A stretch of 64,000 nt of DNA from Rhodopirellula halodulae. GTDB taxonomy: Bacteria; Planctomycetota; Planctomycetia; Pirellulales; Pirellulaceae. Positions 25,368 to 44,922 of this stretch are shown piece after piece. The notes under the pieces are model-generated. The model worked only from the letters and a program-made list of their open reading frames with translations, ran no database searches and was not told where the DNA came from. A program made the position numbers and the translations under genes. The stretch lies in contig NZ_JAJKFV010000029.1 in the NCBI RefSeq assembly GCF_020966775.1, positions 241,001-305,000 on the forward strand, written 5' to 3'. Numbering within the stretch: the first letter of the stretch is position 1; each line of letters begins with the position of its first letter.

Positions 25368-26402
25368 ATGTCGCAATCGGTGGTGCCCAATCAATCGTCT
25401 CCTGGTTCCGAGCCCACGCTGAGCGACGACGATGTTGAAGCAGTCGATCGTTTGGGACGGTTAACGCAACAATTGCGTGATGAGTTGGCCCGGGTCATTG
25501 TGGGACAACGCGAAACAATCGATCTGTTGCTGGTGTGTTTGTTTGCAAGACGCCATGCACTGTTGATGGGTGTGCCGGGTTTGGCAAAGACATTGTTGGT
25601 CAGCAAGTTGGCCGAGACGATGTCATTGAAGTTCAATCGCATTCAGTTCACGCCTGATTTGATGCCGATGGACATCACCGGAACGGACATCTTGCAAGAC
25701 AGTGGAAGCGGTCGACGCGAATTTCATTTTGCTCATGGGCCCGTGTTTGCCAACATCGTGTTGGCTGACGAGATCAACCGAGCCCCGCCCAAGACGCAAG
25801 CTGCGATGTTGGAAGCGATGCAGGAACATCGCATCACAGTGGTCGGCAAAGGGTTTGATCTGCCACCGCCGTTCATGGTGCTCGCCACGCAAAACCCGGT
25901 GGAGCAGGAAGGCACGTATCCGTTGCCCGAAGCCCAACTGGATCGCTTCATGGCGTTGATTGAATTGGACTATCCGTCGGAAGAAGAAGAGATTGCCATC
26001 GCACGCACCACCACCGGTGGTGGATTGCCAGAGCTACAGCACTTGATGACGGCGGAGAACATCATTGCGAATCAAGATCTGGTGCGACGCATTCCCGTTC
26101 CGGATCACATCTACACCGAAGCAGCGCGGTTGGTCCGAAAGACACGACCCGCAGGAGGAACCGCACCGGCTTGGTTGTTGCCATTGGTTTCATGGGGTGC
26201 CGGCCCTCGAGCGGTTCAAGATTTGATCTTGGGTGCGAAATCGCGAGCCGCGTTGGAAGGTTCTTACATGGTGCGAACCGAAGACGTGCGAGCCGTCGCC
26301 CAACCCGTGTTGACCCACCGATTGATCACGACCTTTGCCGCCCAAGCCGAGGGAATGACCGCCCGAGACATCGTCGCAAGGTTGCTCGATGAGGAAGGCT
26401 AA
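25368..26402 (+). CDS. MoxR-family AAA+ ATPase (second copy, operon leader)
   Basis: 344 residues, ATG behind ACGGGAA. Walker A is GVPGLAKT, Walker B VLADEINR, with PPKTQAAMLEAMQE and [19 protein letters not shown]. It is the first gene of a long same-strand cluster with DUF58 and von Willebrand proteins, the classical MoxR partners, so it probably uses ATP to mature or remodel a complex that they hold at the membrane. The expected tight junction to DUF58 is missing: a 655-bp insertion with a DUF559 gene and repeats separates them. It is closely similar to the MoxR behind gyrB. Confidence 0.92.
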   Translation: MSQSVVPNQSSPGSEPTLSDDDVEAVDRLGRLTQQLRDELARVIVGQRETIDLLLVCLFARRHALLMGVPGLAKTLLVSKLAETMSLKFNRIQFTPDLMPMDITGTDILQDSGSGRREFHFAHGPVFANIVLADEINRAPPKTQAAMLEAMQEHRITVVGKGFDLPPPFMVLATQNPVEQEGTYPLPEAQLDRFMALIELDYPSEEEEIAIARTTTGGGLPELQHLMTAENIIANQDLVRRIPVPDHIYTEAARLVRKTRPAGGTAPAWLLPLVSWGAGPRAVQDLILGAKSRAALEGSYMVRTEDVRAVAQPVLTHRLITTFAAQAEGMTARDIVARLLDEEG

Positions 26403-26411
26403 AAGAAGGCT

Positions 26412-26439
26412 AGCTGTGAGCTGCTAGTTGTTAGCTGAA
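26412..26439. repeat. Left degenerate 7-bp repeat array
   Basis: Four 7-bp units in register: AGCTGTG, AGCTGCT, AGTTGTT, AGCTGAA. It begins 10 bp after the moxR stop and lies outside the left inverted repeat. Read on the other strand it resembles the array on the right side, so the two seem to mirror each other. Confidence 0.55.
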
Positions 26440-26466
26440 AAGGAAGGAGCGTCAGCGACGCGAAGT

Positions 26467-26510
26467 CCCCTCTCCCCCGGCTTCCGGGGGAGAGGGGAAG
26501 GGTGAGGGGG
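26467..26510 (+). repeat. Left inverted palindromic repeat of the DUF559 cassette
   Basis: 44 bp, almost purely C then G on one strand. CCCCTCTCCCCCGG pairs with CCGGGGGAGAGGGG to give a 14-bp hairpin stem, followed by an AGGGTGAGGGGG arm. Such CTCCCC/GGGGAG plus GGGTGAGGG elements recall REP-type sequences seen in many bacterial genomes. Confidence 0.7.
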
Positions 26511-26541
26511 AATCCAAACCAAGTCTGAAAGACAACCCACC

Positions 26542-26910
26542 ATGCCAATCCGCCAACCAACTCGACTCACCCAAAACGCACGCGAACTTCGCACCAAGCA
26601 AACCAAGCCCGAATCACTCGTCTGGACACTCCTCCGCAACCGCCGACTCAACGGACACAAGTTTCGACGCCAGTTTCCTATTCCACCTTTCATTGCCGAC
26701 TTCGCCTGCATTGAGAAACGATTGATCGTTGAACTCGATGGCGACTACCACGAACATCAAGAGCAACAAGACATGGACCGAACGGCTCATTTGAACCGTG
26801 AAGGATGGACCGTTTTGCGGTTTTGCAACGCGGATGTTTTGGAAAACACCGAAGCGGTCGGTGTGGCGATCTTGCGGGCGATGGGAGAGGAATGGCGAGG
26901 TGGTGAATGA
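26542..26910 (+). CDS. DUF559 (Vsr-like endonuclease fold) protein
   Basis: 122 residues. The family pattern is complete: NARELRTKQTKPESLVWTLL at the start, then LNGHKFRRQFPIPPFIADF, LIVELDGDYHEHQ and the end GWTVLRFCNADVLEN. The Asp in IADF and the Glu/Asp in VELDG correspond to the PD-(D/E)xK-type site shared with very-short-patch repair (Vsr) endonucleases. No DNA methylase gene is nearby, so a Vsr role is unlikely. It lies between two inverted palindromic repeats, in the way RAYT transposases accompany REP sequences; action on those palindromes is inferred. Neighbours on both sides belong to the MoxR/Bat operon and are unrelated. Confidence 0.85.
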   Translation: MPIRQPTRLTQNARELRTKQTKPESLVWTLLRNRRLNGHKFRRQFPIPPFIADFACIEKRLIVELDGDYHEHQEQQDMDRTAHLNREGWTVLRFCNADVLENTEAVGVAILRAMGEEWRGGE

Positions 26911-26925
26911 TGATTCTTGGAGATG

Positions 26926-26969
26926 CCCCCTCACCCTAGCCATCTCCCCCGGAAGCCGGGGGAGAGGGG
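26926..26969 (-). repeat. Right inverted palindromic repeat of the DUF559 cassette
   Basis: Inverted copy of 26467-26510. The differences are confined to a 5-bp stretch (TGGCT in place of GGGGA when read in the left orientation). It begins 15 bp after the DUF559 stop and could also end its transcript. Confidence 0.7.
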
Positions 26970-26999
26970 ACGACGTGTCGCTTCGCTCCTTCGGAAACT

Positions 27000-27055
27000 A
27001 GCACCTAGCACCTAGCACCTAGCACTCAGCACTCAGCACTCAGCACTCAGCACTC
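27000..27055. repeat. Tandem 7-bp repeat array (3 x AGCACCT, 5 x AGCACTC)
   Basis: Eight perfect 7-bp units in one register: three AGCACCT (27000-27020) then five AGCACTC (27021-27055). The array ends 2 bp before the TTG start of DUF58, so it occupies the place where a ribosome-binding site should be. It resembles the short tandemly repeated heptamers known from cyanobacteria. Confidence 0.9.
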
Positions 27056-27057
27056 TT

Positions 27058-27969
27058 TTGTCCGAACAACACACTCCTCGCGAATTTTTGGATCCGGCTG
27101 TCTTAGCAGGCTTGGCTGGGTTGCCGTTGTTTGCTCGTCGAGCGATGCGGGGGAATGTCTCCGGTCGGCACACCAGCCCGATGCGTGGTGCGAGTGTCGA
27201 GTTTGCTGAGTATCGGAAATACGTTCCGGGCGACGATCTGCGACGATTGGATTGGCGGGCACATGGACGAACCGATCGTTACTACGTCAAAGAATTCGAA
27301 GCCGATACAAACTTGCGTTTGCAGTTGGTTTTGGACACCAGCGGTTCGATGGATTACGGATCGGGGGAGCTGACCAAACTTCAGTACGCTCGCCGGATCG
27401 CTGCGGCGATTGGCTACTTGGCGGTGCAGCAAGGCGACGCGGTGGGATTGTCGTGCGTGGCCAACGGCATCACCCATCATCTGCCGGCTCGACGCAATCC
27501 TGCGCACCTCAAGAACATTTTCGACACGTTGGAAGTCGCTCGTTGCCAAGGTGAAACGCACTTGGTGGAGGTCCTGCATGAGCTGGCTGAAACCACGGCG
27601 CAAGCTGCGATGGTGATCGTGATCTCAGACTTCTTCGTGGATCCGGATCCGCTCAGGAACTGTTTGGAGCATTTGCGATTTCGGAAGCACGATGTGTCGT
27701 TGTTTCACTTGCTTGATCCCATGGAACTGAATTTTGAGTTCTCGAGACCGACCCGTTTCTTAGACATGGAAGGAGGCACGGCGATCTTTGCAGAACCAAG
27801 CGAGATTGCGGCCCGTTACCACGAGGCGTTGCGTGGGTATCTGGAACGGGTGCAGGAGATCGTTTCTTCATCGGGTATCGACTATCTGCGTGTCAGCATC
27901 GACCAGCCCTATCCCGAAGTGTTAACGAATTTCTTAACTCGGCGTGCCATGGCAAAGGGGGGACGATGA
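27058..27969 (+). CDS. DUF58 domain protein (MoxR partner)
   Basis: 303 residues from TTG 27058. The N terminus (FLDPAVLAGLAGLPLFARRA) and GRHTSPMRGASVEFAEYRKY, DDLRRLDWRAHGRTDRYYVK are the DUF58 hallmarks. A von Willebrand-like fold follows with DTSGSMDYG as adhesion site and VIVISDFF. DUF58 proteins are cytoplasmic-side partners of MoxR ATPases. No Shine-Dalgarno is visible because a 7-bp repeat array abuts the start, and translation may depend on another signal. The gene ends in an ATGA overlap with the BatA-like gene. Separation from moxR by the DUF559 cassette is the only break in the cluster. Confidence 0.9.
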   Translation: MSEQHTPREFLDPAVLAGLAGLPLFARRAMRGNVSGRHTSPMRGASVEFAEYRKYVPGDDLRRLDWRAHGRTDRYYVKEFEADTNLRLQLVLDTSGSMDYGSGELTKLQYARRIAAAIGYLAVQQGDAVGLSCVANGITHHLPARRNPAHLKNIFDTLEVARCQGETHLVEVLHELAETTAQAAMVIVISDFFVDPDPLRNCLEHLRFRKHDVSLFHLLDPMELNFEFSRPTRFLDMEGGTAIFAEPSEIAARYHEALRGYLERVQEIVSSSGIDYLRVSIDQPYPEVLTNFLTRRAMAKGGR

Positions 27970-43418: not shown

Positions 43419-44549
43419 ATGTGCACGCGTCTGAGTCTGCTGTTTGCGGTTGTCTTCTCATTGATGCTTGGCATCGACGTGCCCACTCGATCGCTATGGG
43501 CACAAAGAGGAATGGACATGGGCATGGGCGACATGATGATGATGAGTAGCTTGGACAGGGACATGAGGCTGGATCCTCCATCACCTTCCGAACTCGCTCT
43601 CAAGGTCACGATCCTTCTCGGTCCCGACTATGACTTCGAGACCAAACCCTTCATGACAGTCCAGGACGTCCTGAAGTGTTTTCCACCCCAACACCACGCC
43701 ATGGGTGGTGGAATGGGAGGCATGGGCGGCATGCCAGTCTCCGCCGTTCAGTATCGAAAACCCACTTCTGGCTTGATCGACTTGGACATGAAACTCTCAA
43801 TCCCCGACAAACCCGAGCGGCACGTTATCGCTCGCATGCCGGAGGGATTGAAAGAAGAAGACGTCGATTCTTGGAAACGAAAGATCCGCCTCAAAGCCCT
43901 GCGATTCGGTTTGAACCGAGTGACGTTCCTGCCCAGTGACTTCAGTATTTCCAAAGACCAAAGCAGCATTTGGTTGCAGGTCCCGGTCGGGAGCCAGGCG
44001 ACCTTGAAATCCAACATGGAACAACACGTCGCGATCGCGTTGGATTTGGCCGAGTCATCCGAAACCAGCGGCCGACGTCCACGCATCGACCTGTTCTTCT
44101 CACAAGAATTGATGAACCGCAACCCGTTTGCCGATCCTAACGGCGATCCGTTTGCCAGGGGGCCCGCGCCCAGTGCTCAGCCTGATCCGTTTAGTGCTCG
44201 TCCCATCAACGGGCCGTTTGCCGCTCCACCGGCCAACATTGCTTCGATCTCAAAGGTTGTCGAGAAGACTCAGAGAATTCGCCAGCAGATCGCGAAAGAG
44301 CTCGAGAGTTTGAGCGATGCGGGCTTGGAGGAAGCATCCAGCGAAGATCAATCAAAAGCCAAAGAACGAATCAAGGACATGTTCATCCAGTTGGAAGTCG
44401 AACAAATCCGAATGAAACAATTGCACATCCAGCAACTGGAAAAACAACTGCAACAAATCAGTGAGTCCATCGAAGAACTCAGCCGCCCCGAAGCAGTCGA
44501 GCAGCGAGTTCAGAAACAACTGGAATTACTGGAGAACAAGCTGGAATAG
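43419..44549 (+). CDS. Exported Met-rich / coiled-coil protein of unknown function
   Basis: 376 residues from ATG 43419, with GGAGGAA 5 nt upstream. A signal peptide (LSLLFAVVFSLMLGIDV) leads into a Met/Gly-rich stretch (MDMGMGDMMMM, later GGGMGGMGGMP). A middle globular part follows, then a Pro-Phe-rich linker (NPFADPNGDPFARGPAP) and a C-terminal coiled coil (~280-376; QLEVEQIRMKQLHIQQLEKQ). Met-rich clusters can bind copper(I), but the spacing here is not a known copper motif. The last ~20 codons are duplicated 218 bp downstream. It is not recognised as a known family. Confidence 0.7.
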   Translation: MCTRLSLLFAVVFSLMLGIDVPTRSLWAQRGMDMGMGDMMMMSSLDRDMRLDPPSPSELALKVTILLGPDYDFETKPFMTVQDVLKCFPPQHHAMGGGMGGMGGMPVSAVQYRKPTSGLIDLDMKLSIPDKPERHVIARMPEGLKEEDVDSWKRKIRLKALRFGLNRVTFLPSDFSISKDQSSIWLQVPVGSQATLKSNMEQHVAIALDLAESSETSGRRPRIDLFFSQELMNRNPFADPNGDPFARGPAPSAQPDPFSARPINGPFAAPPANIASISKVVEKTQRIRQQIAKELESLSDAGLEEASSEDQSKAKERIKDMFIQLEVEQIRMKQLHIQQLEKQLQQISESIEELSRPEAVEQRVQKQLELLENKLE

Positions 44550-44575
44550 ATGAGGTGTCAGCCGACCATTTTCTT

Positions 44576-44601
44576 GTAGGCCAGGTTGTACCTGGCGATC
44601 G
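44576..44601 (+). repeat. REP-like palindrome, copy 2
   Basis: GTAGGCCAGGTTGTACCTGG then CGATCG. The stem is GCCAGGT / ACCTGGC around a short loop. Opposite orientation to copy 1. Confidence 0.75.
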
Positions 44602-44676
44602 CAGTCGATGCTTTGGAACAAAGCGAGACGTGTGATTTGACGTCGCTCGCGAGCGTATTGTGTGATGGCGTGTCAC

Positions 44677-44704
44677 CATCGCCAGGTGGAACCTGGCCTA
44701 CATG
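44677..44704 (-). repeat. REP-like palindrome, copy 3
   Basis: CATCGCCAGGTGGAACCTGG then CCTACATG. It is an inverted mate of copy 2, ~100 bp away, so the two could form a larger cruciform or a paired unit. Confidence 0.75.
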
Positions 44705-44793
44705 GCTGAAGCAGTCGAGCAGCGCGTTCAAAAGCATTTGGAGTTGCTGGAGAACAAGCTGGAATAGATGAGGTGTCAGCCGACCATTCCCTT

Positions 44794-44819
44794 GTAGGCC
44801 AGGTTGTACCTGGCGATCG
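44794..44819 (+). repeat. REP-like palindrome, copy 4
   Basis: Same sequence as copy 2, 218 bp further on, inside the second duplicated unit. Confidence 0.75.
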
Positions 44820-44894
44820 CAGTCGATGCTTTGGAACAAAGCGAGACGTGTGATTCGGCATCGCACGCGAACGCATTGTGGGCCGGCTTGTCAC

Positions 44895-44922
44895 CATCGC
44901 CAGGTGGAACCAGGCCTACATG
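44895..44922 (-). repeat. REP-like palindrome, copy 5
   Basis: Like copy 3 but with AACCAGG in place of AACCTGG, which breaks one base pair in the stem. Confidence 0.7.

Follow-up and report, generated by a model that had tools for sequence, protein, structure and literature searches.

The window, a stretch of 64,000 nucleotides of the Rhodopirellula halodulae genome (genome G000), contains a small cassette within an operon-like gene cluster. A 655-bp stretch separated the moxR gene from the DUF58 gene; its order from the outside in was a 7-bp repeat array, a hairpin-forming inverted repeat and a DUF559 open reading frame (ORF), followed by the mirror image of the array and the repeat. The features, in window coordinates, were as follows.

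25368-26402, plus strand: moxR-family AAA ATPase gene, the left host gene (PF07726, 208 bits)
26409-26437, no strand: left 7-bp repeat array, a common repeat of the genus, probably outside the unit
26443-26514, no strand: left inverted repeat, with an outer stretch, a hairpin (26466-26498) and a G-rich tail (26500-26510) toward the gene
26542-26910, plus strand: gene of a DUF559 Vsr/EDxHD-like predicted nuclease of 122 aa (PF04480)
26922-26992, no strand: right inverted repeat, with a minus-strand G-rich tail toward the gene, a hairpin (about 26940-26968) and an outer stretch
26998-27055, no strand: right 7-bp repeat array, a common repeat of the genus
27058-27969, plus strand: DUF58 gene, the right host gene, with a TTG start immediately 3' of the array

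The initial annotation had described a single DUF559 gene between mirror-image repeats, splitting moxR from DUF58. The ORF and its flanking inverted repeats were found as claimed, and both host genes were identified by profile on either side. The cluster had also been described as a tight operon in which every later junction overlaps; the DUF58 gene did overlap the next ORF (27966), which was the sole later junction looked at. Three other ORFs over the cassette had no Pfam match, and no ORF of the cassette had a profile match to a transposase. Elsewhere in the window, at 44490-44922, a 218-bp unit was present in two copies with a 90% match.

The arms of the inverted repeat were 61 nt long (26454-26514 and 26922-26982) and 89% complementary, and the pair grew to 26443-26514 and 26922-26992 when gaps were allowed (locus L001, converted to window coordinates). 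The core, previously given as a 44-bp palindromic repeat with 41 of 44 positions matching, differed at three positions when read by eye, in agreement with that count. In each repeat, the hairpin had pyrimidines in its 5' arm and purines in its 3' arm, and a G-rich tail extended toward the gene. Folding of the two hairpins as single-stranded DNA was compared with 200 shuffles and gave z values of -3.7 (none of the 200 was as good) and -2.4 (3 of the 200 were as good). Four G-runs with a spacing suitable for a G-quadruplex were read by eye in this window-type repeat.

The DUF559 ORF matched PF04480 with 131.4 bits against a curated cut-off of 20.6, and the domain spanned residues 8-113. The ORF also matched the MTES_1575 profile below the cut-off of that profile, and it had no Y1 transposase match. 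An AlphaFold2 model of the protein, built from an alignment of ten sequences, had a mean pLDDT of 84. The nearest structure was 3hrl, the endonuclease-like protein NGO0050 of Neisseria gonorrhoeae (profile E 4e-35, Foldseek E 6e-7), followed by 3r3p, the catalytic domain of the homing endonuclease I-Bth0305I (profile E 1.1e-4, Foldseek E 6.4e-4); E. coli Vsr (1vsr) was a weaker match (Foldseek E 0.06). These structure and profile matches bear out the Vsr-like nuclease fold that had been proposed. DUF559 is still labelled as a domain of unknown function in Pfam, though the structure of one member (3hrl) has been solved. Over 103 DUF559 loci, D53 was conserved in 101, E64 in 103, D66 in 100, H70 in 101 and D77 in 103, and these acidic and histidine positions are probably the catalytic residues.

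The occupancy of the moxR-DUF58 junction was studied in the genus. DUF58 orthologues with 74-89% identity were present in 10 of the 12 other genomes, and genomes G007 and G008 had only distant ones. The junction carried the cassette in G000, G002, G003, G006 and G012, and in G004 the contig broke at the palindrome, which left the junction on two contigs. The contig-end locus of G004 (L016) was identical over 1859 bp to that of R. europaea 6C (L007). Empty junctions, which the initial annotation had suggested seeking in relatives, were found in G001, G005, G009, G010 and G011, where the moxR and DUF58 alignments lay 9-32 nt apart; thus, six genomes of the genus, including that of the window, were filled and five were empty. 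Relative to the empty relatives, the cassette is an insertion, as judged from these alignments. The window-type repeat pattern, searched with at most 2 mismatches, was found in exactly the six cassette genomes among 13 and was missing from the other seven, and its reversed control gave 2 matches. Because the six cassette genomes share one site, a single insertion event in their descent is the best reading. Similarly, because the same single site was occupied in six species, the window-type cassette has not moved there recently.

The 7-bp arrays, which had been taken for the outer layer of the cassette, turned out to be a separate repeat class of the genus that is not special to the cassette. 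The heptamer pattern was found in 12 of the 13 genus genomes, often away from the cassette site. Such arrays (TAGCTCC, TCGCAAC and the like) occurred in many places with variable length, and the unit sometimes drifted along the array; examples are G003:C1:4790613-4790871, G000:C11:316204-316329 and G000:C12:202686-202790. Heptamers also ran in frame inside an rfbB-like gene. Since heptamers were present elsewhere in the genus, and in the rfbB-like gene of G000 without any palindrome, the arrays were ruled out as a part of the element.

The initial annotation had suggested looking for many copies of the palindrome in the window genome. Instead, the repeat was nearly confined to the DUF559 locus, and no clear copy of the window-type palindrome was found elsewhere in G000, except for one looser hairpin at C29:1439944. 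Because there was no clear solo copy, this genome came close to having the repeat nowhere but at the cassette, an outcome that the initial annotation had named as refuting its reading. Solo palindromes away from the gene were present in relatives, and similar palindromes were abundant in other Planctomycetota genomes. Within the rfbB-like gene, window-type palindromes were found in frame in G002 (2), G003 (2), G004 (1) and G012 (4), and a second palindrome type was found in frame in G012 (2) and G001 (2). Overall, 5 of 11 genus genomes had in-frame palindromes in this gene and 6 of 11 had none (G010 and G011 were outside the sample). The second type flanks another group of DUF559 genes (loci L022, L027-L029 and L033); second-type palindromes were present in G001, yet this genome had no DUF559 match.

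The variable linker of the rfbB-like sugar dehydratase (L184-L194) accepts whole palindromes of the two types in frame, and they encode peptides such as VPSPPxTGERARVRG. At another place, G012:C1:5812082-5813089 (L027/L033), two DUF559 genes stood in tandem about 0.7 kb apart, and the homologous stretches of G002 and G004 showed one; the tandem looks as if the unit had been duplicated.

The surroundings of DUF559 genes were then considered beyond the genus. A profile search found PF04480 in 146 of 392 Planctomycetota genomes. The 103 loci used were stand-alone, strong and author-selected (36 + 60 + 7); 101 were left after removal of L125 and L008, which had short flanks. Loci cut by contig ends (L007, L011 and L016), fragments or weak matches (L031, L032, L035, L036 and others) and multi-domain ORFs (for example, L084, L092, L096, L099, L101, L103, L107 and L024-L026) were excluded, and some strong matches were left unsampled. 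A flanking inverted repeat with a score of at least 20 was found at 64 of the 101 loci and at none of 109 control windows shifted by 1500 bp; loci from related genomes are non-independent in these counts. Mismatched pairs of loci reached a score of 20 in 21 of 596 cases. The top two scores, those of L153 (G255:C3, 413.5) and L148 (G095:C1, 202), came from very long inverted duplications, not from hairpin repeats.

C-first hairpins within 300 nt on both sides were found at 67 of the 101 loci. The remaining loci comprised 3 more in which the hairpin on one side was G-first, 23 with a hairpin on one side only and 8 with none within 300 nt. Among 150 control windows, 135 had no hairpin, 15 had one on one side and none had hairpins on both sides. 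The G-rich tails at 163 hairpins pointed inward, toward the gene, in 112 cases, outward in 18, in both directions in 5 and in neither in 28. Outside Planctomycetota, scores from 26.5 to 43 were obtained for DUF559 genes of Desulfobacterales, Sideroxydans, Burkholderiaceae, Azonexus and Bacteroidales MAGs, and the Rickettsiales locus L013 had a score of 15.5. From the records of a plasmid collection, 16 of 44 matches were chosen by taxon; 6 of these 16 loci (from Azospirillum lipoferum, Sphingomonas, two Deinococcus, Qipengyuania and Pseudanabaena) scored at least 20, and the highest of 32 controls was 14.5. The other 10 scored below 20, and eight of these were not above the highest control. 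By these counts, the association of DUF559 genes with flanking palindromes is far beyond chance and extends to several phyla.

The boundaries of the unit were determined by comparison of locus L150 (G398) with L139 (G155), L140 (G334) and L157 (G211). Homology extended over 449-454 columns with 77.5-78.8% identity and stopped at the outer edges of the repeats, with offsets of 0/0 for L157, 1/-1 for L139 and -6/0 for L140. In the compared stretches, nothing else of L139 or L140 matched L150. Only the comparisons with L150 were used for the unit ends, because L139, L140 and L157 have part of their flanks in common. The stretch of about 470 bp that L022 (G007) has in common with L027-L029 and L033 started 4-5 nt from the outer edge of the left repeat and stopped before the right repeat, and homology ended less sharply in the other locus pairs that were compared. 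Aligned in this way, a unit of about 450 bp, with the repeats as its ends, recurs in places that have no other homology. Inspection by eye of 18 printed loci revealed neither a target-site duplication nor a consensus target.

Of the 101 loci, 68 with a score of at least 18 and a repeat of at most 100 nt were used to compare protein identity with repeat similarity. Within one host family, r was 0.79 (24 loci, 248 of 276 pairs), and over all 68 loci, r was 0.54 (2212 of 2278 pairs); in each case, none of 2000 permutations reached the observed value. Both correlations were computed after removal of flank-sharing pairs, and the permutations for the 68 loci were unstratified by host. When the permutation was stratified by host family and flank-sharing pairs were kept, the observed value was 0.63 and the highest of 2000 permutations was 0.37. 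Paralogues within the same genome had a mean repeat similarity of 0.26 at less than 45% protein identity (12 pairs) versus 0.74 at 60% or more (3 pairs). At the level of sequence, the fact that repeat and protein vary together shows that the parts of the unit descended together; recognition of the repeat by the protein may be one reason for the co-variation, among other possible ones.

The genome-wide load of palindromes was estimated by counting the pattern CCCCTN{2,16}AGGGGN{3,7}GGGG, overlapping matches included, in the 392 Planctomycetota genomes; the window's own repeat type lies outside this pattern. The thresholds were set by the authors: E of at most 1e-20 for strong DUF559, a set that includes some long or broken ORFs; at least 20 more matches than for the reversed pattern for palindrome-rich genomes; and E of at most 1e-10 for strong Y1. 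Palindrome-rich genomes made up 46 of the 74 with strong DUF559 versus 9 of the 318 without it, and 22 of 49 versus 7 of 316 after removal of the richest family. In 14 families containing both DUF559 states, the presence of DUF559 went with a higher median in 9, a lower one in 3 and an equal one in 2. No palindrome excess was found in 17 of the 74 genomes with strong DUF559. Five of the nine palindrome-rich genomes without strong DUF559 had weaker matches (G058, G094, G261, G318 and G325).

Such palindromes might instead be REP-like sequences that are moved in trans by RAYT/IS200-type Y1 transposases, with DUF559 as a passenger caught between repeats. Y1 genes were indeed present in 250 of the 392 genomes (E of at most 0.001), including the window genome, and strong Y1 was itself associated, though less strongly, with palindrome richness (7/113 versus 2/205 without DUF559, p 0.011; 41/61 versus 5/13 with DUF559, p 0.065). 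However, the effect of DUF559 was strong in both Y1 strata, namely 41 of 61 versus 7 of 113 palindrome-rich genomes with strong Y1 and 5 of 13 versus 2 of 205 without it. Moreover, the repeat type tracked the DUF559 subtype, and the lack of paired hairpins in the 150 control windows beside DUF559 loci, a limited test for other trapped genes, also spoke against a passenger. Trapping by a Y1 system is therefore considered improbable. The earlier description of an element without a Y1 transposase holds for the cassette itself, which has no Y1 match. Y1 genes are present in this genome and in many others, although the DUF559 link persisted in both strata.

About equally unlikely is a resident role for DUF559 in repair or hairpin processing, in which the nuclease would remove or cleave palindromes and lie among them because it tolerates or requires them, but would not mobilise them. 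The Vsr fold is consistent with such a role, and according to the available text of PMC12907096, the Caulobacter DUF559 protein VsrA is needed for the DNA-damage response of cells that lack a cytosine methylase. Nevertheless, a resident nuclease leaves unexplained both the repeat-bounded units in places without other homology and the empty junctions. C5 methylases (PF00145) were missing from five of the six cassette genomes, which also argues against it. The claim that no methylase is near is thus upheld for the C5 type in these five; the sixth, G000, has a C5 methylase on a different contig. A partnership in restriction-modification or of the Dcm/Vsr kind was disfavoured on the same count, which covers C5 methylases only and not the N4 or N6 types.

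A role of the hairpins as terminators or insulators, selected to make insertion into an operon tolerable and not recognised by the nuclease, would fit the position of the cassette in an operon-like cluster and the good folding of the hairpins as DNA. A T-run within 10 nt of the stem was present at 14 of the 163 hairpins, and the repeat of Azospirillum lipoferum has five T at its end. Yet the T-run was missing at the other 149, and insulation requires neither a subtype-specific sequence nor many solo copies, so this role is very unlikely and termination was disfavoured as a common feature. Action of the purine strand through G-quadruplexes, for which the suitably spaced G-runs of the window-type repeat speak, is the least credible of these explanations and was rejected as a common feature, as a canonical G-quadruplex motif occurred at only 52 of the 163 hairpins.

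The association could also be studied in E. coli, in which the DUF559 gene is ycjD, located between sapF and fabI. Matches to ycjD were found in 3365 of 5426 complete genomes, and the gene is present in MG1655. In MG1655, an intact palindrome of the same build stood downstream of ycjD together with degenerate ones; upstream, no palindrome of that build was seen, so the gene was flanked on one side only. The gene occupies MG1655 1351407-1351760 (L196:2408-2761), and its 3' end extends into the first of the palindromes, which is degenerate. The 43-nt E. coli palindrome had matches in 5377 of the 5426 genomes, at a median of 19 places. At least 80% of the sapF-ycjD-fabI query was held by 3333 of the 5426 genomes. 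No clean empty ycjD junction was found; the type strain has other genes next to fabI. Two sampled O157 genomes, whose best place covered only the fabI end, had 5 palindrome places each.

At the zntA-tusA palindrome, 50 of 60 sampled genomes covered the whole query in one piece, and the others had extra DNA or a partial match. No clean empty site was found there; the palindrome is apparently missing from L201, but the surrounding sequence is different in this locus. In some E. coli strains (L201 and L202), the zntA-tusA palindrome was accompanied by additional repeats and a small gene for a hypothetical protein.

With a probability of about 0.62, the cassette represents a minimal mobile unit that is widespread and in which a Vsr/EDxHD-like nuclease acts on its own hairpins. 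This reading draws on the comparisons that revealed the insertion, the unit ends, the co-variation, the solo palindromes and the genome-wide co-occurrence, and under it the DUF559 protein would recognise, cut and move its palindromes. The nuclease may recognise its own hairpin and tail, either as a folded single strand or as a cruciform, and it would then nick or cut the hairpin or a target. Through repair of the break, either the whole unit or just its hairpin could be copied to new sites. By analogy, the logic of such a unit would be like that of REP/RAYT systems and its chemistry like that of a homing endonuclease.

A broader proposal, put forward tentatively and at somewhat less than even odds, is that DUF559 units form a distinct class of autonomous mobile elements of about 450 bp. 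Their sole protein would be the nuclease, the repeats would be both the termini and the non-autonomous progeny, and copying would proceed via nuclease-made breaks and not via strand transfer by a transposase. Such a class would explain scattered families of C-first palindromes, including those near ycjD. Palindromic repeats are common in bacteria, and some of their families have no known dedicated enzyme, as PMC3733652 states for the CGTC-tagged REPs, a different class. Here, the C-first palindrome class gains a candidate enzyme, and, if the proposal is true, a nuclease can sustain a REP-like life cycle without a transposase. The link is testable in E. coli K-12, which has ycjD with adjacent palindromes. 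Among the open-access papers searched that name DUF559, no title or abstract opening was about palindromes flanking the gene.

The unit was compared with known systems. Like insertion sequences and MITEs, it is bounded by inverted repeats and occurs in places without other homology; it differs from them in that no match to a transposase was found and the 18 loci inspected by eye showed no target duplication. With the Vsr mismatch endonuclease, it shares the fold (1vsr), whereas five of the six cassette genomes lack a C5 methylase and the DUF559 gene is flanked by repeats. The EDxHD homing endonuclease I-Bth0305I, whose family is treated in the available text of PMC3943268, is similar in fold and sequence in its catalytic domain. 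In contrast, the DUF559 ORF is intergenic, encodes 122 aa and is bounded by hairpin repeats; because the protein has this length and its domain covers residues 8-113, it would lack the extra DNA-binding regions described for I-Bth0305I. A homing endonuclease cuts an unoccupied allele and is copied into it; for the cassette, occupied and empty junctions both exist in the genus.

According to the available text of PMC3733652, CGTC-tagged REPs are palindromic repeat families said to be without a dedicated transposase, and their stems almost invariably start with AT pairs and carry CGTC-like tags. The palindromes flanking DUF559 genes, in contrast, are C-first. The sequence ATTGCGAG or its complement, which we take to be the CGTC-type REP core, had 7 occurrences in 6 of the 103 DUF559 loci within 700 nt of the gene. 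Identity with CGTC REPs was therefore rejected.

The closest likeness in organisation was to REPtrons, which combine REPs with a RAYT (TnpA-REP) gene. As far as the available text of PMC8266576 and PMC3733652 describes them, these have one gene between hairpin repeats, many solo repeats, and an enzyme that diverges together with its repeat. DUF559 units behave in the same way with respect to co-divergence and numerous solos, with no clear solo in the window genome, and this likeness is one of analogy, not of membership. No GTAG tag beside the stem was read by eye in the window and the printed loci; a G-rich tail toward the gene was found instead. The enzyme also differs, being a PD-(D/E)XK/Vsr-type nuclease by prediction and not an HUH/Y1 transposase. 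Because its organisation resembles that of a REPtron and its chemistry would resemble that of a homing endonuclease, without the defining enzyme of the REPtron, the cassette was placed under the theme of a palindromic repeat with its own enzyme.
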